A stretch of DNA of 64,000 nucleotides from Arthrobacter alpinus (lineage in GTDB: Bacteria; Actinomycetota; Actinomycetes; Actinomycetales; Micrococcaceae): NCBI RefSeq assembly GCF_001294625.1, contig NZ_CP012677.1:1-64000 (forward strand), read 5' to 3'. This document shows, in pieces, positions 6,708 to 52,833 of the stretch (positions within the stretch are counted from its first letter, which is position 1; each line of letters opens with the position of its first letter). Made by a program: the position numbers and the translations under genes. Under the pieces are notes generated by a model. The model ran no database searches. It saw nothing but the letters and a program-made list of their open reading frames with translations, and was not told the DNA's origin.

Positions 6708-6709
6708 CC

Positions 6710-7228
6710 GTGAGTTTTTCACCGGGTAGCCTGCCGCGGACGGGTATCGGCATCGACATCCATGCCTTCGCCCCCGTCGAGGATGCCGTTCCCCTTTGGC
6801 TGGCCGGCCTTTTTTGGGAGGGTGAGACTGGTCTCTCAGGCCATTCCGACGGCGACGCCGTAGCCCACGCTGCCGCCGACGCCCTGTTCTCGGCCGCAGG
6901 GGTGGGGGATTTGGGCACCCACTTTGGTACCGACCGGCCCCAGTACAAGGGCGCCAGTGGGGTGCGGTTGCTGGCCGAGGCCGCCCGGATCGTACGGGCG
7001 GCAGGCTTTGAGATCGGCAATGTTGCCGTGCAATTTGTGGGCAACCGCCCCAAGTTCAGCCCGCGCCGGCTCGAGGCGGAAGCCGTCCTGACGGCCGCCG
7101 CCGGTGCGCCTGTCTCGGTCAGCGCCACTACCTCCGACGCGCTGGGCTTCCCTGGACGTGGCGAAGGCATCACCGCTTTGGCCACGGCACTTGTCATCAA
7201 GACCACCACCCCGGTGCCTGAAAGGTAA
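6710..7228 (+). CDS. ispF: 2-C-methyl-D-erythritol 2,4-cyclodiphosphate synthase
   Basis: IspF cyclises the MEP-pathway intermediate with release of [14 protein letters not shown] (residues 10-20) supplies metal ligands Asp16 and His18, and the third ligand is His53 in [20 protein letters not shown] and [14 protein letters not shown] are family signatures. The 172 residues are normal for the trimeric enzyme. The start is GTG at 6710, immediately after ispD. cysS begins nine bases after the stop, so ispD-ispF-cysS forms one operon, as in mycobacteria. Confidence 0.94.
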
Positions 7229-8901: not shown

Positions 8902-9906
8902 ATGGCCAATAGTTCACGCTCCGGGGCAGTACGCAAGCTCAAGAAGGGTCCCAGCGTCGGCACGGGTGGCCATGGTCGGAAGGCACTTGAGGGCAAGGGC
9001 CCCACTCCGAAGGCTTCCGAGCGGACCTACCACAAGGCGTTCAAGAGCAAGGAACTCTCCGAGCGTTCGGCAGCCAAGCATGCAACAGCCCCCCGCGGCG
9101 GCAACAGTGGCCGCCCCCGCAGCGGCCCCAAGGGCCGTGCCACCGAAGAGCTGGTCACCGGGCGCAACTCCGTGGTTGAGGCGCTGCGCGCCGGCATCCC
9201 CGCGAAGGTTCTCTACGTCGCTGTCCGCGTTGACATGGACGAGCGCGTACGCGAATCCATCAAGTTGGCCGCAGAACGCGGCATCCCGCTGCTCGAGGCA
9301 CAGAAGCCCGAGCTGGACCGTCTCACCGAGGACGCCATCCACCAGGGCCTGGTCCTGCAGATCCCGCCGTACGAATACGAAGATGCTGTGGACATGGCTT
9401 CGGAGGTCATGGCGAAGTGGAAAAAAGGTCACATTTCCAACGCCCCGCTGATCGTGGCTCTGGACGGCATCACCGACACCCGCAACCTCGGTGCCATCAT
9501 CCGCAGCGTCTCGGCGTTCTCCGGCCACGCCGTCGTCATCCCCGAGCGCCGCAGCGCGGGCGTGACGGCTGCCGCTTGGAAAACCAGTGCCGGAGCAGCC
9601 GTCCGTGTGCCCGTCGCCAAGGCCCCGAACTTGAACCGGGCCATTGGCGCGTTCCAGAAGATGGGCTACTTTGTGCTGGGGCTCGACGGCGACGGCGACG
9701 TTTCGCTGCCCGATCTCGGTCTGGCCCGGGACCCGATCTGCATCGTCGTCGGTTCCGAAGGCAAGGGCTTGTCCCGCCTGGTCCGGGAAAACTGCGACCA
9801 GATCGTCTCCATCCCGATCAACTCGGCCATGGAGTCCTTGAACGCCTCCATGGCGGTTGGCATCAGCCTCTACGAGGTCTCCAAGCAACGCGCTACCCAG
9901 GCCTAA
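8902..9906 (+). CDS. rlmB: 23S rRNA (guanosine-2'-O-)-methyltransferase RlmB (SpoU/TrmH family)
   Basis: This SPOUT-class enzyme methylates a ribose in 23S rRNA. The first 85 residues are a basic, low-complexity extension rich in Lys, Gly, Ser and Arg, common in actinobacterial members and probably RNA-binding. The substrate-binding domain begins ELVTGRNSVVEALRAG. The three knot motifs are present: NLGAIIRSVSAFSG (from Asn195), VVGSEGKGLSRL (from about 283) and SLNASMAVGISLYE near the C-terminus. The start is ATG at 8902. About 245 bases separate it from cysS, so it may have its own promoter. glgX starts four bases after its stop. Confidence 0.92.
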   Translation: MANSSRSGAVRKLKKGPSVGTGGHGRKALEGKGPTPKASERTYHKAFKSKELSERSAAKHATAPRGGNSGRPRSGPKGRATEELVTGRNSVVEALRAGIPAKVLYVAVRVDMDERVRESIKLAAERGIPLLEAQKPELDRLTEDAIHQGLVLQIPPYEYEDAVDMASEVMAKWKKGHISNAPLIVALDGITDTRNLGAIIRSVSAFSGHAVVIPERRSAGVTAAAWKTSAGAAVRVPVAKAPNLNRAIGAFQKMGYFVLGLDGDGDVSLPDLGLARDPICIVVGSEGKGLSRLVRENCDQIVSIPINSAMESLNASMAVGISLYEVSKQRATQA

Positions 9907-9909
9907 TCA

Positions 9910-12063: not shown

Positions 12064-12142
12064 CCGTTGAGGGGACACATCACCCCCTTCCCAGCCTAGG
12101 GTCACCTTCGGCGTGGGTGGGGTGATGTGTCCCCTCAACGGT
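12063..12142. terminator. 24-bp perfect hairpin between glgX and glgP
   Basis: The arms 12063-12086 and 12119-12142 are perfectly complementary, with a 32-base loop. The left arm starts in the glgX stop codon and the right arm ends two bases before the glgP stop on the other strand. Confidence 0.82.
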
Positions 12143-12144
12143 TG

Positions 12145-14769
12145 TTACGCCGTGGTGGTCAGGCCCAACTCGGCGGGGCTAGCCATGGCGGCGTGCCGGG
12201 GGAGGACCTGAACGCCGTAGCCAAAGCTGCCGGAGCGGTCAATGAGTAGGTCGGCCGCGAACTGGTAGCGTCCGCCGCCCAGATCGGTGGCGGACTCCAT
12301 CGCCAGGGTTCGGGTGTCGATCAGCTCGTCGTTTTCGGCAACCTTGCCGTACTTGACCAGGACGCTCACCTCCGCCGGTGACAGCCCGGCCAGGTGCACA
12401 TTTGCCCGCACTTGCAGGCTCTGGCCGATCTGCGGTTCGTCGGCGAGGCCGTGGGATTCCACATGCTCTATGTGCACCCCGCCCCAGGCCGAACGGACCG
12501 ACTCGATCCACGCAGCAAACTCGCGGGCGCTGGCATAGTCGTGTGCATGCGCCTCCCGGCCGGCAACGGCTGCTGGCTGGTAGAGTCGCTGCACGTATTC
12601 CTTGACCATGCGTTCGGCGGATACGGCCGGGCCCAGGTGGGCGAGGGTGTGCCTGATCATGGAAATCCAGTGCGATGGCAGCCCGTCGCCCTGTGGCTGG
12701 GACGGGCCGGCAGCGCCGGCGGCGGCCGAAACCACGTCGCCGTAAAAGCGCGGTGCAACCTGGTTTTCCAACAGCTCGTACAGGGCAGCGGACTCAATGT
12801 CGTCCCGTTCCGCATCGCTGGTGCCACGGTTTGCTGTGGGGATCGCCCAGCCATTCTCGCCGTCGTAGTGTTCATCCCACCAACCGTCCATGACGGAGAG
12901 GTTCAGGGAACCGTTGATGGCCGCCTTCATGCCGGAGGTGCCGCAGGCCTCCAAGGGGCGCAAGGGGTTGTTCAGCCACACGTCGCAGCCGGGGAACAAG
13001 GTGCGTGCCATGGCGATGTCGTAGTTGGGCAAGAACACAATGCGGTGACGGACCTCGGGGTCATCGGTGAACTGGACCAGGTCCTGGATCATCTTCTTGC
13101 CGGCGTCGTCGGCAGGGTGCGATTTCCCGGCGATCACCAACTGGATGGGGTGCTTGGGGTGCAGCAGCAACGCCTTCAGGCGGGCGGGGTCGCGCAGCAT
13201 CAGGGTCAAGCGTTTGTAGGTGGGGACGCGGCGGGCAAAGCCGATGGTCAGCACGTCGGGGTCCAGAGCCGCATCGGTCCAGGCCAGTTGGGCGTCGGCG
13301 GCACCGCGCTTTTTCCATGAGGAGCGCAGACGACGCCGGGCATCGGCCACCAGCGCTGAGCGCAGACGACGGCGCAGGGCCCAGACATCGGCGTCGCTCA
13401 CGTCATAGACCTTGGACCAGTCCGGACCATCCAGCACATCTGTGCCAAATCGTTCCCGGGCCATGGCGGCCAGCTGCGGGTCAACCCAGGTGGGCACGTG
13501 CACGCCGTTGGTAACGGAGGTGATGGGGATGTCCTGGTGGTCAAAGCCGGGCCACAGGCCTGAGAACATCTCCCGGGAGACCACACCGTGCAGCTTGGCC
13601 ACACCGTTGGCGCGCTGGGCCAGGCGAAGGCCCATGACGGCCATGTTGAACACCTCGGGGTCGCCGCCGTCGTAGTTCTCCGCGCCCAGGGCAAGGATCC
13701 GGTCCACCGGGACGCCCGGGGCCAGTTCGCCGGCAAAGAAGTACTCGATCATGCCGCGGGGGAACCTGTCGATTCCGGCGGGGACCGGAGTATGGGTGGT
13801 GAACACGGTGGACGCGCGCCCGGCGGTCAGCGCCTCGTTGAAAGACAGCGGCACGGAGGTGAGTGCCGGGTCCATGAGTTCGCGGATACGCTCGATCCCC
13901 AGAAACCCGGCGTGGCCCTCATTGGTGTGGAAGACTTCGGGCGCGGGCGTGCCGGTGAGCCGAGCGTGGATGCGCAGGGCCTTAACTCCGCCCATGCCCA
14001 GGAGCAGTTCCTGCGCCAAGCGGTGATCGCCTCCGCCACCGTAAAGCCGGTCGGTGACACCGCGGGCGGCGTCGTCGTTCTGCGCCACATTGGAATCCAG
14101 CAGCAGCAGCGGCACCCGGCCCACGTCGGCACGCCAGATATGGGCGTGCAGCACCCGTCCCTCGGGCAGTGGCAGCGAAAGAATGGCGGGTGTTCCGTCC
14201 TCCTCTCGCAGCAGCGTCAAGGGCAGGGCGTCGGGGTCCAGCAGCGGGTAAGTCTCTTTTTGCCAGGCATCCTCTGACAGCGATTGCTTGAAATAGCCTG
14301 CCTGGTACAGGAGCCCGACGCCGGTCAGCGGCACCCCGACGTCGGAGGCGGTCTTGAGGTGGTCGCCGGCAAGGATTCCCAGGCCGCCAGAGTATTGGGG
14401 GAGCACTTCGGTGATGCCGAATTCGGGGGAGAAGTAGGCGATGCTCTGTGGTGCCTGCGCACCTAGGGACTGGTACCACCGCGGTTCGGACAAATACTGG
14501 GTGAGGCTGCGCTCGGCATCCTCCACCCGGGCAACAACAGCAGGGTCCTGCGCCAAAGCCTGCAGTTGTTCGCGGGAGATCGCCGCGAGCATGGCCAAGG
14601 GATCGTGGTGTGCCTGCTCCCACAGTGCGGGGTCAAGGGATTCGAAGAGTTGTCGGGTGGGCACATGCCAGGACCACCGCAGGTTGGTGGCGAGTCGGGG
14701 GAGGGCGCCGATCTGCTCGGGGACAACTGTACGGACTGTGAATCTACGAATTGCCTTCATGCCGGTCAC
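12145..14769 (-). CDS. glgP: Alpha-glucan (glycogen) phosphorylase
   Basis: This enzyme releases glucose-1-phosphate from the ends of alpha-1,4-glucans with pyridoxal phosphate. The N-terminus (LPRLATNLRWSWHVPTRQLF) matches the DUF3417-type extension of the actinobacterial phosphorylase subfamily. VFHTNEGHAGF and FTTHTPVPAGIDRF lie mid-protein, and the PLP site EACGTSGMKAAIN has the cofactor lysine at about Lys615, followed by GWWDEHYDGENGW. At 874 residues it is full length. The GTG at 14769 is used here; an in-frame ATG nine bases further in is an alternative. It is divergent from glgE. Confidence 0.93.
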   Translation of the reverse strand: MTGMKAIRRFTVRTVVPEQIGALPRLATNLRWSWHVPTRQLFESLDPALWEQAHHDPLAMLAAISREQLQALAQDPAVVARVEDAERSLTQYLSEPRWYQSLGAQAPQSIAYFSPEFGITEVLPQYSGGLGILAGDHLKTASDVGVPLTGVGLLYQAGYFKQSLSEDAWQKETYPLLDPDALPLTLLREEDGTPAILSLPLPEGRVLHAHIWRADVGRVPLLLLDSNVAQNDDAARGVTDRLYGGGGDHRLAQELLLGMGGVKALRIHARLTGTPAPEVFHTNEGHAGFLGIERIRELMDPALTSVPLSFNEALTAGRASTVFTTHTPVPAGIDRFPRGMIEYFFAGELAPGVPVDRILALGAENYDGGDPEVFNMAVMGLRLAQRANGVAKLHGVVSREMFSGLWPGFDHQDIPITSVTNGVHVPTWVDPQLAAMARERFGTDVLDGPDWSKVYDVSDADVWALRRRLRSALVADARRRLRSSWKKRGAADAQLAWTDAALDPDVLTIGFARRVPTYKRLTLMLRDPARLKALLLHPKHPIQLVIAGKSHPADDAGKKMIQDLVQFTDDPEVRHRIVFLPNYDIAMARTLFPGCDVWLNNPLRPLEACGTSGMKAAINGSLNLSVMDGWWDEHYDGENGWAIPTANRGTSDAERDDIESAALYELLENQVAPRFYGDVVSAAAGAAGPSQPQGDGLPSHWISMIRHTLAHLGPAVSAERMVKEYVQRLYQPAAVAGREAHAHDYASAREFAAWIESVRSAWGGVHIEHVESHGLADEPQIGQSLQVRANVHLAGLSPAEVSVLVKYGKVAENDELIDTRTLAMESATDLGGGRYQFAADLLIDRSGSFGYGVQVLPRHAAMASPAELGLTTTA

Positions 14770-14933
14770 CCTAGCCTATGAAGGTTTCACCAAGACAGCC
14801 CCACGGTGTTATGTATCCGTTCATGACGAAAAGGTCGGTGCAGGGGAGAAAAAGACCTCCCGCACAAAGCCGAATCGCTCAATATTGCCGTTGCCCTTAG
14901 CAATATGTGAGGGGAGTCGCTAACGTCTAGTTT

Positions 14934-17090
14934 GTGAGTACCTCCAAGCCAGCACGCCATGCAAGCATTGCCAACAGCCTCGCTGCACCAGCCACGGCTC
15001 CCATTCCTGCGCCGGGACCTGCGCCGGACGTCCCGGACTACCCAGCGGCGCCCACGGCCCGGATCCCGCGCCCCGGGCCGGGAGGGGGCCTGCGTTTTGG
15101 CAGGATTCCCATCACCAATGTCCAGCCGGTCATTGAGGATGGTGCCTTCCCGGCCAAGGCAGTACGCGGGGGCGACGTGCAGGTGCGTGCCGTGGTCTTC
15201 CGGGAAGGGCACGACGCCGTGGGCGTGCACGCCGTCCTCTTCAACCCCAGCGGGGTTGAAGTCCAGCGAACCCGCCTGGAGTCCCTGGGCAAAGGAACCG
15301 ACGCCTGGGGAGGGGTGGTGACCCCGACCTCCGAGGGTGCCTGGTCGTTCGCCGTGGAGGGGTGGACGGATCTGTATGCCACCTGGGCCCACAACGCTGC
15401 GGTCAAAATCAATGCTGGCGTGGACGTCGAGGTCATGCTGGCGGAGGGTGCGCAGCTTCTGGCGACGGCGGCCGGGGAATCCTCCCACGCCACTGACGCC
15501 AAGACGTTCAAGCATGCGGCGAAGGCGCTCGCGGACGGCACGCTGAACACCAACGACCGCCTGGCTGCGGGAAACAGCGGGCCCGTGCGGGCCGCCGTCG
15601 CACGCTTCCCGCTGCGGGACCTGGTGACCCGCAGCCGGCGGTATCCCTTGCAGGTGGAGCGCGACGCCGCTGGCCGCGGTGCCTGGTACGAATTATTCCC
15701 CCGCTCCGAAGGCGCTAGGCGCAACCCTGACACTGGCGCCTGGACCAGCGGGAACTTTACGACGGCGGCCCACCGCCTCCCGGCCGTCGCCGCCATGGGC
15801 TTTGACGTGGTGTACCTGCCCCCCATCCACCCCATCGGCACCATCAACCGTAAGGGGCCCAACAACACGCTCACCGCAGGCCCGGGGGATCCGGGTTCGC
15901 CCTGGGCCATCGGCTCGGCAGCCGGCGGGCACGACGCCATCCACCCCGATCTGGGCAGCTTTGCCGACTTTGACGCGTTTGTGGCCGCCGCTAATGACCT
16001 GGACCTAGAGGTAGCCCTGGACCTGGCGTTGCAATGCGCACCTGACCACCCCTGGGCCACCGAGCATCCGGAATGGTTCACCACCCGCATCGACGGCACC
16101 ATTGCGTACGCGGAAAACCCGCCCAAAAAGTATCAGGACATCTACCCGCTGAACTTTGACAATGACCCTGCCGGGCTGTCCACAGAGATCCTGCGGATAG
16201 TGCGCCTGTGGATTGACCACGGCGTGCGAATCTTCCGCGTGGACAACCCGCACACCAAGCCCGTCTGGTTCTGGGAATGGCTCATCGGCACCGTGAACGC
16301 AGAACGTCCGGACGTGGTGTTCCTAGCCGAGGCGTTCACGCGCCCGGCCATGATGGCAGCGCTTGGCCGGGCCGGCTTCCAACAGTCCTACAGCTACTTC
16401 ACTTGGCGCAACACCAAGGAAGAGCTGGAGGAATACTTGTTCCACGTCAGCCGCGAATCGGCAGGCTACTTCCGGCCCAATTTCTTCGTCAACACCCCTG
16501 ACATCCTCAGCGAGTACCTGCAATTCGGAGGCCCGGCGGCGTTCAAAATCCGCGCCATCCTGGCCGCCATGGGCAGCCCCCTATGGGGTATGTACGCCGG
16601 CTATGAGCTTTTTGAGCATGTGGCCAGGCCCGGCGCCGAGGAGAACATCGACAACGAGAAGTACGAGTACAAGGACAGGGATTTCGCGGCATTCCAGGCC
16701 GAGGGCAAGTCGCTGGCTCCGTTCATTACGGCGCTGAACAGGATCCGCCGGGCACACCCGGCTCTGCTGGATTTGGAGAACCTGACCCTACATACCAGTT
16801 CCGACGACGCCACGCTCGTGTTCAGCAAACACAAGCGGATTGCCGCCACAGCGCAGGAACCGGCACGCAAGGACACCATCATCGTGGTGATCAACGTCGA
16901 CCCGCACAGCATGCGCCAAGGCCAGGTGACCCTGGATCTGGACGCGTTGGAACTGGACGGGCTCTCCGCCGAGGGCACCTTCGAGGTCCAGGACCTTGTC
17001 ACGGGCGCCACCTGGAATTGGAGCAAACAAAACTATTTCCGCCTGGATGCACAGTTGGAACCCGCCCACATCCTGCACGTGCGGCGGTAG
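14934..17090 (+). CDS. glgE: Alpha-1,4-glucan:maltose-1-phosphate maltosyltransferase GlgE
   Basis: GlgE extends alpha-glucan chains with maltosyl units from maltose-1-phosphate. The GH13_3 core begins FGRIPITNVQPVIEDG. The catalytic triad is Asp437 (FRVDNPHTKP), Glu466 (FLAEAFTRP) and Asp523 (NTPDILSEY); the spacings of 29 and 57 are the same as in the characterised Streptomyces enzyme. The first ~55 residues are an Ala/Pro-rich extension. The start is GTG at 14934. The stop is two bases before the next start, so GlgE is coupled to the maltokinase-GlgB fusion that makes its donor and branches its product. Confidence 0.95.
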   Translation: MSTSKPARHASIANSLAAPATAPIPAPGPAPDVPDYPAAPTARIPRPGPGGGLRFGRIPITNVQPVIEDGAFPAKAVRGGDVQVRAVVFREGHDAVGVHAVLFNPSGVEVQRTRLESLGKGTDAWGGVVTPTSEGAWSFAVEGWTDLYATWAHNAAVKINAGVDVEVMLAEGAQLLATAAGESSHATDAKTFKHAAKALADGTLNTNDRLAAGNSGPVRAAVARFPLRDLVTRSRRYPLQVERDAAGRGAWYELFPRSEGARRNPDTGAWTSGNFTTAAHRLPAVAAMGFDVVYLPPIHPIGTINRKGPNNTLTAGPGDPGSPWAIGSAAGGHDAIHPDLGSFADFDAFVAAANDLDLEVALDLALQCAPDHPWATEHPEWFTTRIDGTIAYAENPPKKYQDIYPLNFDNDPAGLSTEILRIVRLWIDHGVRIFRVDNPHTKPVWFWEWLIGTVNAERPDVVFLAEAFTRPAMMAALGRAGFQQSYSYFTWRNTKEELEEYLFHVSRESAGYFRPNFFVNTPDILSEYLQFGGPAAFKIRAILAAMGSPLWGMYAGYELFEHVARPGAEENIDNEKYEYKDRDFAAFQAEGKSLAPFITALNRIRRAHPALLDLENLTLHTSSDDATLVFSKHKRIAATAQEPARKDTIIVVINVDPHSMRQGQVTLDLDALELDGLSAEGTFEVQDLVTGATWNWSKQNYFRLDAQLEPAHILHVRR

Positions 17091-21202: not shown

Positions 21203-26477
<5,275 letters not shown>

Positions 26478-28927: not shown

Positions 28928-34202
<5,275 letters not shown>

Positions 34203-44123: not shown

Positions 44124-45020
44124 ATGAGCTCCAAGAACCAACCACGGCCGACCAGTGCAGAACGCACAGCAAAGGCGCGCGAGCAGGCCAAGACGATTCG
44201 TGATGCGCAGCTCAAGAAGGAAAAGCGCAACAGCTGGCTGATCCGTGGCGGTGTGCTTGCCGCAGCCGTGGTGATTGTGGTCATCATCGCCTTGATCGTC
44301 ATCCAGACGAACAAGGCCAATGAGCCAGTTGCCACCACCGGTCCGGTCCCTGCAAACACCAACGTGTATGGTGGGATCGAATTTGGCAAGGACGGCGTGC
44401 TGATTCCCCCAACCACTACCGACGCCTCTGTTGATACGGGGAAGCTACCGGCGATGCCGACGGCCGCCCCCACGGCGGCGTTTGGCCTCGATGGAATCGG
44501 CATTAAGGCTACGGACGCTGGCAAGCCGGCTCAGGCCGTTATTTACTTGGACTTCATGTGCCCGGCATGCAATAGCTTCGAAAAGCAGTACAGCGAGCAA
44601 CTGACGACGTGGCAGAACGATGGCACCATCACGCTGGAATACCGTCCCCTGAACTTCCTGGACCGCTTCTCCTCCGGTACCAACTACTCCTCACGCGCCG
44701 CAGCTGCGACCGCCTGCGTGGCTGATACCTCACCGGAGAAGTACAAGGCGTTCTTTGATTCCTTGTTCACCAACCAGCCTGCTGAGAACAGCAAGGGCCT
44801 GGACAACGCGACACTGAAGAAGCTGGCCACCGAGGCGGGGGCAGCCGATATCAGCAGTTGCCTTGACAACAAAACCTACCGTCCTTATGTTGCCAACGGC
44901 AGTGGCTTGGCGTCAGCACACGGCGTCAATGCCACACCGACGGTGTTCATCGATGGTAAGCAGTGGAAAGACGGCACCTTGCCTGACTTCGTCAAGGGGA
45001 TCGTCGCCGCCAAGAAGTAG
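44124..45020 (+). CDS. Membrane-anchored DsbA-like thiol-disulfide oxidoreductase
   Basis: This is a 298-residue protein with a charged N-terminal cytoplasmic stretch, one membrane helix (about 46-63, VLAAAVVIVVIIALIVIQT) and an extracytoplasmic thioredoxin/DsbA domain. The redox site is CPAC (Cys146, Cys149) in YLDFMCPACNSF, and the cis-proline loop is TPTVFIDG near residue 272. Two further cysteines lie in the helical insert. It likely forms or shuffles disulfides in exported proteins. Start ATG at 44124. A hairpin with a following T-run ends the unit before tRNA-Thr. Confidence 0.88.
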   Translation: MSSKNQPRPTSAERTAKAREQAKTIRDAQLKKEKRNSWLIRGGVLAAAVVIVVIIALIVIQTNKANEPVATTGPVPANTNVYGGIEFGKDGVLIPPTTTDASVDTGKLPAMPTAAPTAAFGLDGIGIKATDAGKPAQAVIYLDFMCPACNSFEKQYSEQLTTWQNDGTITLEYRPLNFLDRFSSGTNYSSRAAAATACVADTSPEKYKAFFDSLFTNQPAENSKGLDNATLKKLATEAGAADISSCLDNKTYRPYVANGSGLASAHGVNATPTVFIDGKQWKDGTLPDFVKGIVAAKK

Positions 45021-45164: not shown

Positions 45165-45238
45165 GCCTCCTTAGCTCAGCTGGCCAGAGCACCGCTCTTG
45201 TAAAGCGGGGGTCATCAGTTCGAATCTGATAGGGGGCC
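45165..45238 (+). tRNA. tRNA-Thr (anticodon TGT)
   Basis: A cloverleaf can be drawn: acceptor GCCTCCT with AGGGGGC (one wobble), D-arm AGCTCAGCTGGCCAGAGC, anticodon stem CCGCT/AGCGG around the loop CTTGTAA giving anticodon TGT, and T-arm ATCAGTTCGAATCTGAT. It reads codon ACA. The 3' end is the likely attachment site of the element that follows. Confidence 0.95.
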
Positions 45239-45273
45239 CAAAAAGCCCGGAAACACAGGGATTTTGGAAGTGA

Positions 45274-45488: not shown

Positions 45489-45815
45489 CTAGTTGAGCTT
45501 GTCGACACCCGTTGGCCGGTACGCCTCCGTGACTGACCTGGTGTCCAAGTCCTCGCGGGTTTCTTCGATGTAGTGCTCCTGGGGCATGGAAATTTTGGAA
45601 TGGCCGGCCTGATAGGCGGTGGCTTCCGGCCCCATGGTCCGGGCGATACGCGTGGCCGTGGCTTTCTTGAAAGTCTTCAGCGCCACCCATTCGTAGCCGG
45701 CCAAATCAGCAGCTTTCCCCCAAAGTTTCCACGAAGGCGCCGGATGTGCAGCTGCTGCCCAAAAAGATGAAACATATTGCGGCACTGAGTTCGCCACGGG
45801 CGAAGCTCGCACCAT
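45489..45815 (-). pseudogene. C-terminal remnant of a tyrosine recombinase (integrase)
   Basis: About 65 residues near the C-terminus (GYEWVALKTFKKATATRIARTM... GHSKISMPQEHYIEE) closely resemble residues 329-395 of the intact integrase at 50938-52233, including the GHS box and catalytic Tyr. The rest of the protein is missing and the upstream frame has no homology, so it is truncated. The second catalytic Arg is Lys here (TFKK against TFRK). It lies 250 bases from the tRNA, where an integrase of a tRNA-inserted element normally sits, and so marks an older insertion or partial duplication. The stretch 45816-46124 upstream of it holds no gene I can support. Confidence 0.82.
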
Positions 45816-46173: not shown

Positions 46174-47334
46174 CTAGTTCCTTCCAGGTGAACTATCGAG
46201 CCACGCCCTAAAACCAGCCAGTTCCTTATCGGAAGTAGCTTTAGTCTCATGCAGCTGCCCTATTTCAACTTGCATAGCGTCGATCTGGTTCTGTAGCCCG
46301 GTGATGAGCTTTTCCTGCTGGTCATGTTCTTCCTCGGCCGCAATATCAGTGCCGAGGATGCGTCGGATTGCATCAAGTTGCTCTTCCGGGGTCATCTCGC
46401 TGACCGTCGGATCATCGTCATCATCGCGCTGTGGGTCTTTGGCGCGTGCCTCGATGATCGCGCTAGCAATGCTCTCAGGCGTAGATAGTCCTAGTTCCAT
46501 GGCTTGAGCGATTTCGTTGGCTAGGCGGGTGATCCCGCTGCTTTGCCGTGGGGTTGGTTCCCACGAAAGACCTTTCACGAAATTTCGGTTGGGGTTGGCC
46601 ACGGCTTTTTTGCGGTCTTCAAGAGAATGCTTCCCCATGTGCCCGTTGATGCTGTGGTGGCTGCCGCGTTCAAAATCACACAAGGCACAGCGGAACGCTT
46701 TGCTTCCGTCCTCGTATTCCACTTCGAGGATTGCGGAAGAGTCACGCAGAACACCATAATTCTGGGTCTGGTATTCCTTCACACCGTAGGGCTTGATGCT
46801 TTTAGCCTTACGACTTCCTTCAGACGCCGAAGGTAAAGGCACTGTAGGCGATGCCGGGGGCAGTTCAGTCTCAGCCGGTGTGTCCACCGAAGGGTCGGTA
46901 GTTGTTGGTTCTTCCAGTGGCGCTGTTTTGTCGGCTTCCAATGGCAGGTAGCCTTCACTTTCCGCGTGCTCGTCGGCAAAAGAAAGGCATACTTCTGCGT
47001 ACTGTTCGGCACGTTTCAGGTATTCGATACGCTGATCCGGGCTTGGAAGGAACGCTTTGACGATCTGATTGAACATTCTGCGGAATTGCGCGTCGTTGGT
47101 GATTGTGAACTTTTTGCCTTGTTCCTTCGTCGAGACGATCTGGAACTTGTTCTCAGCTGTACGCTCTATCGGGCACTGGACCGAGTGCGCGAAGATCAAG
47201 AGCGCGTATGCGTCGCGTGGAACTTCTGAAGCATACAGGCGAAAAGCTGGGGCAGTCCCCACTTTTCGATTGAGAGCTTTTTCAACATGGGCCTTAGGGG
47301 TGGTTGCAGGTTTATTTCTGGTGGGTGTAGCCAA
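46174..47334 (-). CDS. C2H2 zinc-finger-like coiled-coil protein, function unknown
   Basis: This 386-residue protein is not a family I can name. Residues 20-130 form a helical/beta domain (FRLYASEVPRDAYALLIFAH, RRMFNQIVKAFL). A Glu/Thr/Pro-rich linker follows (135-170), then a canonical C2H2 finger C-x2-C-x12-H-x3-H with Cys216, Cys219, His232 and His236. The C-terminus is strongly acidic (DDDDDPTVSEMTPEEQ) and then a coiled coil (about 335-375). Such eukaryote-like fingers are uncommon in bacteria. It is the last gene of a three-gene minus-strand unit, 12 bases after the 566-residue gene, and is followed by a hairpin. The finger suggests nucleic-acid or protein binding. Confidence 0.75.
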   Translation of the reverse strand: MATPTRNKPATTPKAHVEKALNRKVGTAPAFRLYASEVPRDAYALLIFAHSVQCPIERTAENKFQIVSTKEQGKKFTITNDAQFRRMFNQIVKAFLPSPDQRIEYLKRAEQYAEVCLSFADEHAESEGYLPLEADKTAPLEEPTTTDPSVDTPAETELPPASPTVPLPSASEGSRKAKSIKPYGVKEYQTQNYGVLRDSSAILEVEYEDGSKAFRCALCDFERGSHHSINGHMGKHSLEDRKKAVANPNRNFVKGLSWEPTPRQSSGITRLANEIAQAMELGLSTPESIASAIIEARAKDPQRDDDDDPTVSEMTPEEQLDAIRRILGTDIAAEEEHDQQEKLITGLQNQIDAMQVEIGQLHETKATSDKELAGFRAWLDSSPGRN

Positions 47335-47346
47335 AGGGTATTCCTC

Positions 47347-49047
47347 TTAGTTTGTGGATTTGTTATCTAGGTGGGCGCCGATATAGCCGATGGTGACGCG
47401 CCCATTGGTAGGCCATGTGTCTTCAAAATGGAGGCGTGGTGAGCGTCCGCGCCCGGTTGCTAGAGGTATGTGCGCGTACATGATCATCTGGCCCGTAGGG
47501 TCTATTTCCGTTGGAACAGCGAAAGTTCTCTGTTCGCGCATTCTTTGGTTCTTTTGAACTGTGTCGGATTCGTGGGCGCTGATCTGGCGGATACGCATAT
47601 AATGCCCGTGTTCGGGATTCCGCTGGTATTGGAAGATTCCACCTTCGAAGGCCGTGTCGGCTCGAGCCTGAGCGTATGCGTCAAAGGTGCGTAGTACTTC
47701 CCACGTCTTTTGAACTACGCTGACCCCAAGGTCGGTGAATTCATCCAGTTCTACGGTTGTCTCCGCGTCGCCACAGTATAGGACTCCTGGAATCTCACCA
47801 ATTCGCTCTAGTAGTTCAGTGAAGGTCTCTGGCGGTTTGACTGATTCAAGATGAGGCACGACGGGGAGGTAGGCAGACTCATCACCTCTATCCCACAGCT
47901 TTCGTTTAAGTACACGGTTATCGGCATGGATGCGGTCTGACTGGTCCTGCTGGGAGGACAGCTCAAGGTTGAGAACTTCATTGTCTTCTATGAGGTTTTT
48001 GAGATACTTTTCGGCATCCTCGGCGCGATTGCGAAGTTCGCTGTTTTCCTGGTCCGACATTTCAAGAAGTTCGGTCAGTTCCTTGTTCTCATCCTGAAGT
48101 TCAGATGATACTGAGCTATTCTCAAGTCCAGCGGATGATAGGTGCTGTCGCACGACCTTGCGGAATGCTACATCAGCCTGACGTAAGACGTCTGGTAACT
48201 CCGCGCTGGCAAGCTCAGCGACAAGCGACCGGCGAAGAATCGAGTTCAGCTTCTTGGAGTGCTCACCGACGATTCGATGATGTTGCATGATTCGGTGAAC
48301 ATAACCGTCTAAAGGGTTCTCAAAATTTACCCCAGTCTTGTATGTGCGAATTGCGCCCGGCATAAGTCCGTGCGCTGTTCCCGCCCACTCATTGAAAGCA
48401 TCCAGCTTCTCAGGCGCGATCATGTGCACGCTGGTAAGTCCCTGCGTCCCGCGTAGAACGTCCCGGATTGTCTCTTGCCACAGCGTAGGCGTTTGCCGTA
48501 TTGGAGGGGTGCTGACAAGTACCATTCCTCGCCGGTCGTCATCTTGAATCGAGTTCAGCACAACGTCTAATGACTCCGCGGACTCAGCGAGCGAGTGACC
48601 AGTGGGAAGCAGGGTTTGCCCGTCATAGAATTCCACAGCGTCGAGCAATGTTCTTACGAAAGTTGGTGTGGCGGTATCGCGAGGCCTTTCTCCGTAACGA
48701 CCTTTTTCTAGTGGAGGGTGAATATCAGCTAAAAACCATACGGTTTCACCGCTTGTGGCGAGTGTAATGTGAGTTTTGGCTGTTTGGTTCAGTCCATCTT
48801 CCTGCCACGGCGCTTTATCCCACTGCTCGGTGTATACCCAGCGGAAGGCCTTCGTGCCATTGTCGAGTTCGCGGTACTGGTGCTGAAGGGTATGACCTTT
48901 AGCGCTGTCAGACTTCTGTTCACGCTCTGGAAGATCCTCGAATCCTTTGGACTTGAACCAGTTTTCTAAGATGCCTGCAATCTTCCGCTCAGCGTCATGC
49001 GCGCTGGTAGACGCGAGCGTTCTAAACCCAATCAATGAATCCCTCAT
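47347..49047 (-). CDS. 566-residue coiled-coil protein, function unknown
   Basis: I do not recognise this family. The N-terminal ~130 residues are a mixed fold (RKIAGILENWFKSKGFEDL, FRWVYTEQWD, TVWFLADIHPP). Residues 150-270 look like an alpha/beta domain (VVLNSIQDDDRRGMVLVSTPP, VHMIAPEKLDAF, AIRTYKTGVNFENPLDGYVHR). A long Glu/Leu/Asn-rich coiled coil follows (about 320-395). The C-terminal domain contains YCGDAETTVELDEF, then a conserved-looking end LHFEDTWPTNGRVTIGYIGAHL. There is no signal peptide or membrane helix. ATG at 49047 lacks a good ribosome-binding site, so it may depend on upstream translation. It lies 70 bases after the XRE-membrane gene and 12 before the finger gene: probable co-transcription. 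Confidence 0.75.
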   Translation of the reverse strand: MRDSLIGFRTLASTSAHDAERKIAGILENWFKSKGFEDLPEREQKSDSAKGHTLQHQYRELDNGTKAFRWVYTEQWDKAPWQEDGLNQTAKTHITLATSGETVWFLADIHPPLEKGRYGERPRDTATPTFVRTLLDAVEFYDGQTLLPTGHSLAESAESLDVVLNSIQDDDRRGMVLVSTPPIRQTPTLWQETIRDVLRGTQGLTSVHMIAPEKLDAFNEWAGTAHGLMPGAIRTYKTGVNFENPLDGYVHRIMQHHRIVGEHSKKLNSILRRSLVAELASAELPDVLRQADVAFRKVVRQHLSSAGLENSSVSSELQDENKELTELLEMSDQENSELRNRAEDAEKYLKNLIEDNEVLNLELSSQQDQSDRIHADNRVLKRKLWDRGDESAYLPVVPHLESVKPPETFTELLERIGEIPGVLYCGDAETTVELDEFTDLGVSVVQKTWEVLRTFDAYAQARADTAFEGGIFQYQRNPEHGHYMRIRQISAHESDTVQKNQRMREQRTFAVPTEIDPTGQMIMYAHIPLATGRGRSPRLHFEDTWPTNGRVTIGYIGAHLDNKSTN

Positions 49048-49117
49048 AATGTGGTGGTTTTATGGTTTTCTGTAACTTGTTTATCAGCAAGGGCGGACAT
49101 TTCTTGCACTACTTGCT

Positions 49118-50503
49118 TTAGCTGTGGGCATCCCGTGCGATCAACCCACGCACCCAGTCTTCAAGGTTGTCTAGGTCTAGTTGGGAGAGTACGAGGCTTT
49201 CGTTTACCCAGTCTTTGGAAAATGTGGCGCTCTTCTCCTGATTTCCCGTGAGCTCGGGCTCATTGACTGTCGTGACCCCCAACCAGACCGGCAATGCTCG
49301 GGTATCGAGAATGATGCTGAGTAGCTTCAGCTGGACTTTCAAAAGTTCCTGGGCAGACTGAGAAAGGGTGTCCCACTTGATCGATTGGTCTTCAACTGTG
49401 TCGGTAGCATGCGCCAAAACAAGGGGTGCCACATGCCGGGCGTGTATAGTCTGACCGAGCAATTCGGCACGTTGGATGATCACTTGTTGCGTTTCATTCC
49501 ACGACGCGGCCTGTTGCGATGCTTCTTCCATATCTTCCAATGCTTGCTGCGCGGCATCGAGCTTTTCAGCCTCGGCATCAGCCTCTCTTCGTAGCTTTCG
49601 GCCTTTCCAGACGAGAACCCCTCCCACCGCTAGTAGTGCAGGCAAAGCAACTATCCCAGTTAGAACTGCGGTGCCGCCAGCGACGCCCATGCCACCAGCT
49701 GCTAGCGAGCCACCACCGAGCCACGCCAGCGTCGCACTAGAGGCGGCTGCACCAGACAATGAAGCGATAGCTGTCCCAGTTGAGGCAGTTGCCGCAGCCG
49801 AGACTGCCGCAAACACTCCGGTTGCAGTTCCGGCGCCTAGCCCGACGCCAGCGATAGCGCCGGCTGTACTGTCAGTCAGCGTCTTAAGGACGCTAACTTG
49901 TGTCTGCTTCCTTAAGCCGCGAATTTCAAATTCTTGAGTTTTTGCCTTACCGCCGAATGCCCCAACCTTCATGGCAGCAGACAACTCGACACGTTGGGCG
50001 TCAAGTAGAGGCTTCCAATCGATTATTGACGCAGTTTCAAGGAACGGAAGGATGAAGTTATTGCGCGCATTTTCAAGTGATTTTTCGGAGTTCTTAAGCT
50101 GGAATGCCACTCGATCATTCAAGAGGTTCGATCTGGCGATGATTTGAGTTCGTTTTGAGTCGTTCTCTTCGTAAACCGGTCCAGCAAGGGCCCGAGCGAG
50201 GGGGGCCTGCCTAGGAGGAACCGCGAGTTCGCGCTCGGTCTCATTCTCCAGTTCTGTTTCGCTGTGTCCGAGGGCATCGAGTAGACGTTGGCGGTGTCGG
50301 CCTGTCGGATCAGTCTTTCCTGATTCAATGCGGGAAATGGCCACTGCGGCACTCTTAGGGCTCTCTTCGCTGCCGTATCCGGCAGCGCGGCCAAGATCCT
50401 GCTGGCTCTTACCGTTTACCCTCCGCCACTGCTTCCCCCACCCTTTTAGTACCGTCGCCTGGGCGGTAAGGCGCATGTCTCTAACCGAACGTTCGGTGGC
50501 CAT
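49118..50503 (-). CDS. XRE-type HTH protein with Gly/Ala-rich membrane segment
   Basis: Residues about 20-80 form an XRE-like helix-turn-helix (WRRVNGKSQQDLGRAAGYG... AAVAISRIESGKTDPTGRHR). A helical linker leads to a long Gly/Ala-rich hydrophobic stretch (about 213-300: AGAIAGVGLGAG, ASTGTAIASLSGAAASSATL, WLGGGSLAAGGMGVAGG, LPALLAVGGVLVWKG). It resembles glycine-zipper-like membrane hairpins seen in various bacterial membrane proteins. A basic/acidic coiled coil (305-350) and a C-terminal domain follow. DNA binding and membrane insertion in one 461-residue chain is unusual; it could be a sensor-effector. ATG at 50503 with AGGAG about 12 bases upstream. First gene of the minus-strand trio, divergent from a small gene over an operator-like repeat. 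Confidence 0.78.
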   Translation of the reverse strand: MATERSVRDMRLTAQATVLKGWGKQWRRVNGKSQQDLGRAAGYGSEESPKSAAVAISRIESGKTDPTGRHRQRLLDALGHSETELENETERELAVPPRQAPLARALAGPVYEENDSKRTQIIARSNLLNDRVAFQLKNSEKSLENARNNFILPFLETASIIDWKPLLDAQRVELSAAMKVGAFGGKAKTQEFEIRGLRKQTQVSVLKTLTDSTAGAIAGVGLGAGTATGVFAAVSAAATASTGTAIASLSGAAASSATLAWLGGGSLAAGGMGVAGGTAVLTGIVALPALLAVGGVLVWKGRKLRREADAEAEKLDAAQQALEDMEEASQQAASWNETQQVIIQRAELLGQTIHARHVAPLVLAHATDTVEDQSIKWDTLSQSAQELLKVQLKLLSIILDTRALPVWLGVTTVNEPELTGNQEKSATFSKDWVNESLVLSQLDLDNLEDWVRGLIARDAHS

Positions 50504-50529
50504 CTGTTGACACTCACTCCTGGATTCAC

Positions 50530-50570
50530 CTAAACTCAGGCTAACTTAGGGCTAACTTATTGTAGCCCTA
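50530..50570. promoter_or_regulatory. Operator-like repeats in the divergent promoter of the trio
   Basis: GGCTAACTTA occurs in tandem at 50539 and 50550 (11 bases, one helical turn), and TAGGGCTA (50548-50555) forms an inverted repeat with TAGCCCTA (50563-50570). A TTGACA lies at 50507. This 90-base region separates the XRE gene and the small plus-strand gene, so autoregulation by the XRE protein is plausible. Confidence 0.55.
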
Positions 50571-50593
50571 ACCAAATATAACAAGGAGTAGAC

Positions 50594-50941
50594 ATGAGCG
50601 CGAGTAATCCCAGCGGTTCGCAAGATGAATTCAATCCCCCTGAGGAGCAGACGAGACCTGACAGCTTCAGGCATCCAGCGAATATAACTAATCAAACTGG
50701 CCCGCTCGGGACAGCGTCAATTGCCGCTGTTGGGATAGCGATCACCGCCGGTATTTTGATTCAAGACCCTCGGCTGCGCCAGGTCTGCCGCAGCGTTGTA
50801 CAAGACCCCAAAGTACATCAAGCGATTAAGGAGGCAAACGAGGCAGTCTTTCGAGAGATTTCTGCATCATGGCGCCGTCACGGTGGCATTGCAATCCTGG
50901 CCTCGGTATTTCATGCGGGCGTGGCTGTGCCGCGTAATTAG
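50594..50941 (+). CDS. Small protein with one hydrophobic segment, function unknown
   Basis: 115 residues. The N-terminal third is polar (SGSQDEFNPPEEQTRP), then LGTASIAAVGIAITAGILI (about 38-56) could span the membrane, and the C-terminal part is helical and basic (VHQAIKEANEAVFREISASWRRHGG). A strong AAGGAG lies eight bases before ATG 50594, supporting real translation. It is divergent from the XRE-membrane gene and converges on the integrase gene, whose last bases overlap its stop. No family recognised; a link with the trio (for example as antagonist or accessory) is only inferred from position. Confidence 0.6.
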   Translation: MSASNPSGSQDEFNPPEEQTRPDSFRHPANITNQTGPLGTASIAAVGIAITAGILIQDPRLRQVCRSVVQDPKVHQAIKEANEAVFREISASWRRHGGIAILASVFHAGVAVPRN

Positions 50942-52233
50942 AGCCTGAAAGATGCCGCTGTTTTTGGAGGGTTTTCGAGAGGCTCAGTTTCCTTCGTCTG
51001 TAGGGCCTGTCCGTCAGCTGATTGAGCCTGATCATGCTTGGGTCGCGCTTGTTTAGATTTGCGTGACGGCTTGAAAACATCAATGACAGCCCTAGTATCC
51101 AAAGCCCCGCGGCGTTCTTCAATGTAGTGCTCCTGCGTCATGGACACCTTCGAATGGCCAGCCTGATAGGCGGCGGCCTCAGCTCCCATGGTCCTAGCAA
51201 TCATGGTTGCATTGGTTTTCCTGAAAGTCTTCAGTGTCACCCAGCCGTAGCCAATCGCGTCCGACGCTTCACGCCAGACTTTGCCAACGTTGTTCGCATC
51301 TGTCACGGTGCCGGTGGAGGATGGATAGATCAGGCCCAGCGGGTTGGAGATCGCAGATCTTGTTTGGCGGAGGCGGCGTTTGCGTAGTTGCTTGACTAAG
51401 AAATCAGGGACCGTGAGCTGGCGGATGCCGTGTCTGGTCTTGGGATGGTCCTGAATCCTGACTCCACCAACGGTGGTTCTGATGACAGTGGTGTGGACAA
51501 AGATGGTGGGCGGGTTTGCCTCCAAGTCGAGGTCTTCCCATAGCAGTGAGAAGAGCTCCCCCGGTCGAACACCCAGAGCGACCATGCCGTCCGCTATTTC
51601 GTGGAGTTCTTGTGAACGCGGCCGGCCAAGCGCCGGGGCTCGTTCCCACGCAATGAGTTTCTTCCGCAGGTTCTGATACTGTGCCGCGTCCAAAGCCTGA
51701 GGCTTCTTCGTCCGAAGCCGGGGAATTTGTACCCCGAGAACCGGATTGACGACGACGGCGTCGTGGCGCAGAGCAACCTTGAACATCCAAGAGAGCACCG
51801 CGCCGCAAGTTCTGGCAGTGGAAGGCCCCGAGTCCTCGACAACTGAGCGAATGAAATGGTCAACAAGGCCAGAAGTCGCCTCGCCAATTCTGATCGAGCC
51901 GATCCTGGGAGAGATGTGTTTCTTCACCATGTAGGCGTATTTGTCCTTGGTGCGTGCAGCCCTGTCGGACGCCTCCAGGTCCACAAGAAATATCTCAATG
52001 AGACGGTCGATCTTATCGGTACTGGTGACCAAGCCGAATCGCGGGGTCTTGCGGTTGGCAAGCTTTTGTTGCAATTCTCGGCGTGCGGCAGCCGCGGACG
52101 GGCCCCGCGCCTCCACCCGGCGGACTTTTCCGTCCATGTCACGGTAGCGGGTCTCAGCGAGCGAAGTCTTGGCTGACGTACGCTTGGTATGGATGGTTCC
52201 CCACGCACCGAGGGGGAGGGGTTGTCTACTCAT
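50938..52233 (-). CDS. int: Tyrosine recombinase (site-specific integrase)
   Basis: Catalyses integration and excision of the element. 431 residues: an N-terminal arm-binding region (YRDMDGKVRRVEARG), a SAM-like core-binding domain (IDRLIEIFLVDLEASDRAART... about 73-170) and the catalytic domain (180-375). Catalytic residues: Arg223 (GVRPGELFSLLW), Lys265 (HPKTRHGIRQL), Arg338 (LKTFRKTNAT), His360 (QAGHSKVS) and Tyr370 (EHYIE). The histidine usually three residues before the second Arg is Lys335. The C-terminus has a ~50-residue polar extension. ATG at 52233 with AAGGAG upstream. The excisionase gene lies 25 bases upstream on the same strand. It is 5.7 kb from the tRNA. Confidence 0.95.
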   Translation of the reverse strand: MSRQPLPLGAWGTIHTKRTSAKTSLAETRYRDMDGKVRRVEARGPSAAAARRELQQKLANRKTPRFGLVTSTDKIDRLIEIFLVDLEASDRAARTKDKYAYMVKKHISPRIGSIRIGEATSGLVDHFIRSVVEDSGPSTARTCGAVLSWMFKVALRHDAVVVNPVLGVQIPRLRTKKPQALDAAQYQNLRKKLIAWERAPALGRPRSQELHEIADGMVALGVRPGELFSLLWEDLDLEANPPTIFVHTTVIRTTVGGVRIQDHPKTRHGIRQLTVPDFLVKQLRKRRLRQTRSAISNPLGLIYPSSTGTVTDANNVGKVWREASDAIGYGWVTLKTFRKTNATMIARTMGAEAAAYQAGHSKVSMTQEHYIEERRGALDTRAVIDVFKPSRKSKQARPKHDQAQSADGQALQTKETEPLENPPKTAASFRL

Positions 52234-52258: not shown

Positions 52259-52474
52259 TCAAGTCTCCGATTGGAGTGAGATCCAGTGATCAAGATCCGT
52301 CCGGTTAACGCGCACGTGGCGCCCGATCTTGTATGCGTGGGGACCAACTCCCCTTGAACGCCACTGGTAAAAGGTTGGCAGCGGGATCTGCAGCTCACGG
52401 CAGATCTCGGTCGGGGACAACCACTCTTCAGCGAAGGCTTGAGTGGTTGTTGGCTCGGCTGGCTGATCGGTCAT
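52259..52474 (-). CDS. xis: Excisionase-like helix-turn-helix protein
   Basis: 71 residues with the HTH_17/MerR-like fold of actinobacterial excisionases: WLSPTEICRELQIPLPTFYQWRSRGVGP followed by the wing KIGRHVRVNRTDLDHWI. ATG at 52474 is chosen because of a perfect AAGGAG eight bases upstream; an open frame continues further out but without support. Directly upstream of int and co-directional, the usual xis-int arrangement, where it steers the integrase towards excision. Confidence 0.88.
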   Translation of the reverse strand: MTDQPAEPTTTQAFAEEWLSPTEICRELQIPLPTFYQWRSRGVGPHAYKIGRHVRVNRTDLDHWISLQSET

Positions 52475-52833
52475 TTTGGGCTCCTTAATTGTGTGGCATT
52501 CATCATTCCATGCCATATACCCATCAAAGCTGCATGACTTTGGATGGGGAGTCAGGATTCGTTGGGCGGTATCCACAATTAACAGATTTGCAGCTGGTCG
52601 CATCTGATTGTTGATGCAGGTCTATTCGGATTCGTTCTACAGTTGCGAAGCCTTGAGGCACCTCAATAAATACAAGATTTCCGTGGGCAGGCGGATGATC
52701 CGCAGCTGTGGACTCACCACTGACTACCGGTGCAGCAGTTGTTTCACGGAAACGGCAAAGCCTCTGGTGGCCTTGTCGCAGTCGATGTCCCAGACGATAC
52801 TTGAGGAAGCCACAAGATTTGGATCGGAGAGAG
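52475..52833. other. Divergent control region between xis-int and the XRE regulator
   Basis: 359 bases without a gene I can support; short frames on both strands lack ribosome-binding sites and family features. GGATTCGTT occurs twice (about 52556 and 52629). The region probably carries the promoters for excision and for the regulator. Confidence 0.5.

Follow-up and report, generated by a model that had tools for sequence, protein, structure and literature searches.

A candidate defence cargo with an XRE-glycine-zipper fusion at the tRNA-Thr end of an integrative element in Arthrobacter alpinus

Genes between the integrase and tRNA-Thr

The window, a stretch of 64,000 nucleotides from Arthrobacter alpinus (contig NZ_CP012677.1, positions 1 to 64,000), contains a run of three minus-strand genes, P1, P2 and P3, with a small divergent gene, P4. 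An integrase gene and a tRNA-Thr(TGT) flank the run, which occupies the end of an integrative element (Table 1). P1 and P2 are separated by 70 bases and P2 and P3 by 12, with no terminator-like match inside either gap. The stem of the hairpin that follows P3 was matched in none of 1000 dinucleotide shuffles of the 80-base stretch, and it is possible that this is a terminator lacking a U-run. P3 starts with TTG and the ATG of P4 has AAGGAG upstream, while no obvious ribosome-binding site was seen for P2. When the 90-base gap between P1 and P4 was shuffled 1000 times, the inverted repeat within it was equalled once. The promoter-like sequence beside it is a consensus match only, one such match being observed in the region against a mean of 3.0 in shuffles. 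The genes, their spacing, the hairpin, the divergent gene and the operator-like repeat had all been described in a sequence-only reading of this DNA, and each was found where it had been placed.

Table 1. Coordinates of the cargo genes, their domains and the neighbouring features of the element
Feature	Position	Strand	Details
tRNA-Thr(TGT)	45165..45239	+	presumed integration target
Integrase C-terminal-end remnant, between cargo and tRNA	45530..45728	-	similarity to 51084-51282
Perfect hairpin 3' of P3	46125..46163		stem 17 bp, loop 5 nt, without U-run
P3: one C2H2 finger and C-terminal coiled-coil-like stretch	46174..47334	-	ORF, 386 aa
P3 finger C-x2-C-x12-H-x3-H, residues 216-236	46627..46689	-	exact motif match
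P2: HEC-07-like; N-terminal globular region, coiled coil, NsnC-like C-terminal domain	47347..49047	-	ORF, 566 aa
P2 C-terminal domain, residues 406-561, with LHFEDTWPTNGRVTIGYIG end	47365..47832	-	NsnC profile 182-311
P1: XRE helix-turn-helix, Gly/Ala-rich (glycine-zipper-like) membrane segment, helical C-terminal part	49118..50503	-	ORF, 461 aa
P1 Gly/Ala-rich membrane segment, residues 206-300	49604..49888	-	shared core TASTGTAI-x2-LSGAAA...LAWLGGGSLAAGG
P1 XRE domain, residues 14-95	50219..50464	-	single-sequence model, pLDDT block means 54-88
Sigma-70-like promoter match TTGACA-18-TAAACT facing P4	50507..50536	+	beside operator-like repeat; consensus match only
Direct repeat GGCTAACTTA, two copies	50539..50559		copies at 50539 and 50550; overlaps inverted repeat
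Operator-like inverted repeat between P1 and P4	50546..50571		perfect 9-8-9, TTAGGGCTA...TAGCCCTAA
P4: divergent, one predicted transmembrane helix	50594..50941	+	ORF, 115 aa
Tyrosine integrase of the element	50938..52233	-	Pfam Phage_integrase E 1.4e-6
Excisionase-like HTH_17 protein	52259..52603	-	HTH_17 E 2e-12

The integrase remnant resembles its counterpart in the intact gene at 74% over 199 nt, or 78% over 169 nt in a second comparison. In another genome of the same genus (locus L066) an integrase 67% identical over 398 aa adjoins the same tRNA-Thr, and this sibling element carries PDC-M09AB at the same end. Loci L065 and L072 were also considered as copies of the element and set aside, the integrase, the excisionase and three other element genes being unmatched in the stretches examined. 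Candidates for the right end are two tRNA-like copies, both imperfect, of 19 nt (at 96818) and 38 nt (at 139144).

P1 and the Gly/Ala-rich membrane segment

P1 joins an XRE helix-turn-helix to a Gly/Ala-rich membrane segment, as had been proposed from its sequence. The match to Pfam HTH_3 has an E of 0.0013, under the gathering score. A single-sequence structure model of P1 (overall pLDDT 48) is usable for the XRE part alone, for which the best Foldseek matches were ClgR, C.Esp1396I and an M. smegmatis XRE protein (probability ~1.0, E at least 0.02). By these HTH_3 and fold matches P1 has the Cro/CI-type helix-turn-helix that marks XRE regulators. A sequence search of solved structures with P1 returned coiled-coil or chance matches only.

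The PADLOC profile PDC-M09A covers residues 194-334 of P1 with an E of 9.6e-21, corresponding to the core only, whereas the full member in L066 matches at 1e-142. Insertion of this segment in the membrane is predicted from its composition and hydropathy, which peaks from residues 216 and 280. In an alignment of 11 sequences from zipper genes, as we call those encoding the segment, all 21 invariant columns fall within it. P1 could be mainly a membrane-anchored transcription regulator, with P2 and P3 as unrelated hitchhikers, and both the XRE fold and the absence of linkage between the genes across genomes would fit this. Conservation in the family is, however, highest in the zipper core, which is also present in the PDC-M09A protein of L066, in which no helix-turn-helix was detected; we consider such a role very unlikely.

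That the fusion of an XRE domain to the zipper segment recurs is established: no fewer than three further genomes have it (L064, L177 and L181, aligned with P1). HTH_3 is matched clearly above the gathering score in L177 and L181 (E 1e-7 and 1.7e-8) and, as in P1, under it in L064 (E 0.00036). In L064 the gene lies 2.6 kb from Lamassu LmuABC, and the L177 locus also contains a palindrome, together with a small divergent gene for a hydrophobic protein. The latter is a DUF1232 gene, and P4, which has no significant family match in Pfam or other profile searches, was not counted as its relative. P4 has a predicted transmembrane helix from residue 38 (hydropathy 2.1), and among 99 other genomes it gave one match, marginal and frame-broken.

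Some other zipper genes occur in pairs. In L066-L072 they adjoin PDC-M09B genes (by PADLOC for L066 and by sequence match for the other six), and in L073 the partner of the zipper gene is BnzB-like (E 3e-6). P1 shares with PDC-M09, a PADLOC candidate made up of A and B, the membrane core of PDC-M09A, but differs in having an XRE domain and no PDC-M09B neighbour: PDC-M09B was unmatched by P2-P4 and by the genes called at 44-144 kb. The likeness to Bunzi (BnzA/BnzB) lies in L073; P1 itself matches BnzA at E 0.14, and P2-P4 have no BnzB match.

P2, P3 and the company of P2 relatives

Residues 122-391 of P2 match positions 138-402 of the 553-position HEC-07 profile (E 8.6e-17, 59 bits, 265 of 553 positions), and residues 406-561 match the NsnC profile (182-311 of 316) with an E of 9.8e-8. 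This additional C-terminal domain, in which P2 differs from HEC-07, holds 7 of the 12 invariant residues in an alignment of 17 sequences of the P2 family; some relatives consist of the N-terminal part alone (L149). P2 had been described as a 566-residue coiled-coil protein. The length is right, but the coiled coil is confined to about residues 280-390 and the remainder looks globular. A structure model built from five sequences (pLDDT 59) had no Foldseek match at E <= 0.001, and so no fold is claimed for P2; the sequence search of solved structures again gave coiled-coil or chance matches only. NsnC is the PADLOC label for what we take to be a component of Menshen. Menshen is described as a DUF262 gene together with a predicted OLD-family nuclease (PMC10952713). 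P1-P4 match neither in Pfam or PADLOC. A literature search by name found no account in print of HEC-07, PDC-M09 or PDC-M09A, all PADLOC candidates, its one match being by title a COVID test study, and for NsnA/B/C there were no phage-defence titles among the 20 matches listed of 153.

The exact finger motif ascribed to P3 is present, but as a Pfam match it is not significant (E 0.14), and against solved zinc fingers it is weak (best E 0.015). Weak Pfam matches to PlyG, bacilliredoxin and roughex were dismissed as chance. A search of 294 other genomes of the taxonomic family gave no relative of P3; in 295 other genomes of the class sample a single marginal frame-broken match was seen (E 0.003) and no convincing relative.

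Within the taxonomic family, P2 relatives were seen mostly in the company of defence genes. Hma, BREX, type I/IV restriction or PDC-S37-like genes were found near 8 of 11 family loci as against 1 of 29 controls, a count that is partly circular because the reference proteins were drawn from P2 and zipper loci. Recognised defence genes lay near 2-4 of 27 loci in the wider class and 1 of 10 other loci. To offset the circularity, 76 control proteins were scanned independently with PADLOC, the best match having an E of 7.6e-40. Large neighbours were hand-picked for PADLOC in six family loci, all of which (6/6) gave very strong defence matches: HmaA/HmaB in L029, PglX/BrxL/DrmD-like in L030, BrxC in L031, HmaA/B/C with a type IV REase in L032, and a type I and a type IV REase in L034 and L035 respectively. 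A PDC-S37/Hhe-like giant occurs in L078 (E 1e-277). For P2 in the window, no defence neighbour was identified at 44-144 kb with the reference set used. Left out of the counts were loci with the P2 gene uncalled (L036, L132, L135, L155, L157), partial matches (L041, L042), duplicates of L029 and L030 (L077 and L079) and one locus with the zipper gene uncalled (L179); 8 of the 9 plasmids with a match were taken in. L157 holds a type IV REase match.

It is also conceivable that the run serves the element itself as a maintenance or conflict module, with P1 and P4 an addiction or entry-exclusion pair that is not directed against phage. An XRE gene transcribed divergently from a small membrane gene, with an operator-like repeat between them, would be in keeping with this, as would the position next to the integrase at the end of the element. 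On the other hand PDC-M09A/B and Bunzi-like pairs have the same membrane core, as does a gene near Lamassu, and the family relatives of P2 lie in defence loci, with which an added maintenance role would still be compatible. We regard this explanation as distinctly unlikely.

Separable modules and a possible mechanism

The sequence-only reading had gone further and suggested that P1, P2 and P3 could be an undescribed sensor-effector system. In a single conserved and wholly unrecognised system of this kind P3 or P2 would sense, P1 would kill and P4 would give immunity. The shared strand, the short gaps free of terminator-like matches and the lone hairpin after P3 favour such a unit. Across the genomes sampled, however, its genes did not recur as neighbours. 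A zipper gene was found near P2 relatives in 0 of 48 P2-positive loci besides the window, and, where a zipper gene was called, a P2 relative accompanied it in 0 of 27 loci, the window aside. L064, L177 and L181 have no P2-like gene in the stretches examined, P3 is an orphan in our searches, and in G066, G305 and G311 P1-like and P2-like genes lie far apart within one genome. PADLOC profiles, moreover, already touch both P1 (PDC-M09A) and P2 (HEC-07, NsnC). A single new multi-protein defence system is accordingly improbable, and the repeated trio that the neighbourhoods of homologues had been expected to reveal did not appear. In the loci counted the homologues never co-occurred as neighbours, which had been named beforehand as counting against the trio; matches to unrelated housekeeping or transfer functions, named alongside it, were not found. 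Searched singly, P1, P2 and P3 had no relative in viral contigs, where L081-L083 were recovered with alignments, and none in phage records; plasmid records gave none for P1, P3 or P4.

On balance we favour the view that P1-P4 are defence cargo of the tRNA-Thr integrative element, made up of at least two separable modules in one operon-like run. In this the earlier proposal of accessory cargo at a tRNA-borne element, probably for defence and with a membrane-acting component, has held up. The defence reading would apply to P1 and P2 separately, with a mechanism drawn from their sequences and gene company.

What is new here is the XRE-glycine-zipper fusion, and we infer that P1, with P4, would be a self-regulating membrane effector. 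By binding the operator-like inverted repeat, the XRE domain may repress the promoters of both P1 and P4. Infection would relieve this autorepressed state, and the Gly/Ala segment, which P1 has in common with PDC-M09A and a Bunzi-like pair, could then insert and oligomerise in the membrane, leading to depolarisation; P4 may restrain P1. RexAB and other membrane-depolarising abortive systems couple a sensor or regulator to a membrane effector. The working idea would be the same, with no sequence relation claimed, but here regulator and effector would be one chain. P2 would be an accessory defence protein of the HEC-07 family in which a HEC-07-type region is followed by an NsnC-type domain (P1-P4 include no DUF262 protein or OLD-type nuclease), and, judging from the company of its relatives, it probably targets invading nucleic acid or works with restriction machinery. 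P3 may be a zinc-finger protein peculiar to this element, with a helper role that perhaps involves nucleic-acid binding. A bolder version, which we think improbable, would make XRE-zipper proteins a new class of one-chain immune device, harmless as an operator-bound repressor beside a divergent small membrane gene and released to the membrane by an infection signal that P2 and P3 would give here.

For this actinobacterial integrative element, the integrase-tRNA end is a site at which siblings differ in defence cargo, and where a broken integrase or extra excisionase copies persist beside that cargo. If the reading is correct, P1 would be a simple example of a defence effector carrying its own DNA-binding switch, and the PADLOC families PDC-M09A, HEC-07 and NsnC would be tied together through shared domains.

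Cargo genes and the element that carries them

Three minus-strand genes with a divergent small gene, an operator-like repeat and a 3′ hairpin had been described in the sequence-only reading, and this description stands on inspection of the reading frames and on shuffling. P1 (461 aa) joins an XRE domain to a Gly/Ala-rich, glycine-zipper-like membrane segment (the zipper), P2 (566 aa) resembles the PADLOC candidate defence family HEC-07, P3 (386 aa) carries an exact C2H2 motif and P4 has 115 aa. The gap between P1 and P4 holds a perfect 9-8-9 inverted repeat, reached in 1/1000 shuffles, and also a direct repeat. On the 3′ side of P3 there is a perfect 17-bp hairpin (0/1000 shuffles). P4 has a good ribosome-binding site and none was obvious for P2. 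The four genes are flanked by a tyrosine integrase and a tRNA, and their third-position G+C is 0.53-0.56 as against 0.74 in the gene across the tRNA, as would be expected of acquired DNA.

Features of the cargo segment and its borders in the window
Feature	Position	Strand	Remark
P1	49118-50503	minus	
P2	47347-49047	minus	
P3	46174-47334	minus	
P4	50594-50941	plus	divergent
Tyrosine integrase	50938-52233		
tRNA-Thr(TGT)	45165-45239		
Gene across the tRNA	44124-45020		
Broken integrase end	45530-45728		between cargo and tRNA; matches 51084-51282

Beyond the integrase lies an excisionase-like gene, followed by genes that by look would belong to a conjugative element of the T4SS type (ATPases, membrane proteins and a coupling protein). 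The right end of the element has two candidates, at 96.8 kb and 139.1 kb. L066, a locus in a genome of the same genus (G052), shares the tRNA-Thr(TGT), has an integrase 67% identical to that of the window and matches the genes at 52.7-57.2 kb. Its cargo, identified by PADLOC as the candidate defence families PDC-M09A (E 1e-142) and PDC-M09B (E 4e-239), has an extra excisionase-like copy (6651-6869) on one side and the excisionase-integrase pair (10026-11473) on the other. In the window the cargo occupies the opposite side of the integrase, bounded by it and by the broken integrase end. The presence of a spare recombination gene beside the cargo in both cases suggests accretion through nested integration, of which the broken integrase end and the extra excisionase copy look like scars.

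Further along the same chromosome, at ~77-96 kb (G000:C1; L167, L168), a C5 DNA methyltransferase look-alike (85562-86713) and several large unknown genes are present, perhaps as a second cargo region. Within the window, two 250-aa ORFs with identical translations (22596-23348 and 30321-31073, ~7.7 kb apart) lie perhaps in a repeated rRNA-like region.

P2 relatives and their neighbours

Residues 122-391 of P2 match HEC-07 (E 8.6e-17) and its C-terminal end matches NsnC (E 9.8e-8), both by PADLOC; NsnC we take to belong to Menshen. The similarity to HEC-07 extends beyond coiled coil, since in the P2 relative of L032 it spans residues 109-252, ahead of the coil. Relatives were found in 14/295 family and 44/296 class genomes, the source genome included in each, and in 9 plasmid records. 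The two halves are separable, since a number of class matches cover the N-terminal half only (for example L149, 355 aa, HEC-07 E 2.7e-17) and a few the C-terminal half only. Within a single class family (f26), proteins consisting of the HEC-07-like N-terminal half alone occur in several genomes (L149-L154).

PADLOC was run on large neighbours, picked by hand, of family P2 relatives. It named HmaA and HmaB in L029; PglX, BrxL, a HEC-06/Orf5-like protein (GmrSD in Pfam) and a DrmD-like protein in L030; BrxC, 4.5 kb off, in L031; HmaA, HmaB and HmaC with a type IV REase in L032; a type I REase in L034; and a type IV REase in L035. L078 has Hma genes by sequence match and, after its P2 relative, a 2142-aa protein (9674-16102) whose domains are HEPN_Swt1, DUF4011, a helicase and an MTES_1575 nuclease and which PADLOC matches to PDC-S37 (E 1e-277) and Hhe (E 8e-122); similar giants follow the P2 relatives of L037 and L038. 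The giant of L037 (1295-7933) has 2212 aa and the same four domains. Passages of one paper describe Hma as a helicase, a methyltransferase and an ATPase (PMC8565338); another handles the system as BREX-related, its passages on Hma making no mention of HEC-07 (PMC12839542). In a literature search covering sources other than bioRxiv, neither HEC-07 nor PDC-M09 was found used in this sense.

A set of 16 reference defence proteins served to count defence company by sequence match and, because the set was drawn from the counted loci, the count is partly circular: 8/11 family loci in which the P2 gene was called (L036 being dropped from the 12), 2/27 class loci at E < 1e-20 or 4/27 at E < 1e-6 (31 fetched, 4 dropped) and 1/10 other P2 loci, giving 11/48 or 13/48 overall against 1/29 controls. 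An independent control, PADLOC at E <= 1e-20 on 76 proteins of at least 440 aa from 19/20 family control loci (L205 was omitted, BREX genes having already been seen there), returned 10 families, each represented once and the strongest at E 7.6e-40, whereas each of the six scanned family P2 loci had a defence match at E < 1e-80. Within the family, P2 relatives thus show enrichment near defence genes. Class-wide they lie mostly away from recognised defence genes, which counts against a universal link.

No P3 relative was found at E <= 0.001 in the 294 other family genomes, nor any in the plasmid collection, phage collection or viral contigs; the class sample gave one marginal, frame-broken match (E 0.003). 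P4 likewise had one marginal frame-broken match among 99 other genomes and none among plasmids.

P1, its relatives and their partners

Residues 194-334 of P1 match PDC-M09A (E 9.6e-21, PADLOC), and the Gly/Ala-rich core, TASTGTAI-x2-LSGAAA...LAWLGGGSLAAGG, holds all 21 invariant columns of an alignment of 11 sequences. Hydropathy peaks begin at residues 216 and 280, a profile compatible with two or more membrane helices. What sets P1 apart is its XRE domain. Searches with P1 and with a zipper profile matched 20 of 295 family and 12 of 296 class genomes respectively, the source genome included in each, and together 30 other genomes. Reading-frame inspection showed at least three of the 30 to carry the XRE-zipper form (G086, G376 and G454, at L064, L177 and L181), a lower bound as the HTH profile scan was applied to part of them. 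P1 and these three proteins can be aligned across both the XRE part and the zipper, and are less similar in the C-terminal part; the HTH exceeds the Pfam cut-off in L177 and L181 and is under it in P1 and L064.

The L064 gene is 2.6 kb from Lamassu LmuA, LmuB and LmuC. L177 has a 7-2-7 palindrome, and its divergent neighbour is a 107-aa DUF1232 gene; the arrangement resembles the P1-P4 layout, the small divergent genes being unrelated by family. The L181 gene adjoins a 302-aa gene that matches no Pfam family and, by look, an IS66-type transposase. Foldseek matches to the modelled XRE part of P1 are mostly XRE regulators, restriction-modification controllers among them; none passes E 0.001, but the kind of protein matched fits an autoregulated defence gene.

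Among other zipper genes, a PDC-M09A-type gene adjoins a PDC-M09B gene in L066-L072 (L066 by PADLOC, the other six by sequence match), weaker PDC-M09B-like partners occur in L065, L175 and L176, and the partner in L073 is BnzB-like. Several genera of the family also carry a 550-583 aa protein combining cysteine-rich parts with the same zipper core (L182-L187), with no PDC-M09B match seen in the fetched stretches.

A proposed stack of modules and a possible mechanism

A zipper gene was present in the fetched stretch at 0/48 P2-positive loci and a P2 relative at 0/27 zipper loci (28 minus L179, gene uncalled), and the few genomes with both carry them far apart (G066, on one contig ~77 kb apart, G305 and G311). 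The trio P1-P2-P3 is therefore no conserved unit in this sample. The simplest reading of the cargo segment is a stack of defence modules, P1 with P4 and P2 with or without P3. A rare or recent joint system is the less likely alternative. That the cargo serves in defence is likely, and that it works as one system is unlikely.

For the stacked modules, the domains, the operator-like repeat and the gene company form the observed base of a mechanism in which the XRE domain of P1 would autorepress its own gene, the zipper would insert into the membrane and depolarise the cell, P4 may restrain P1, and P2 could be a nucleic-acid-side sensor or helper. It is the XRE-zipper fusion that deserves specialist attention.
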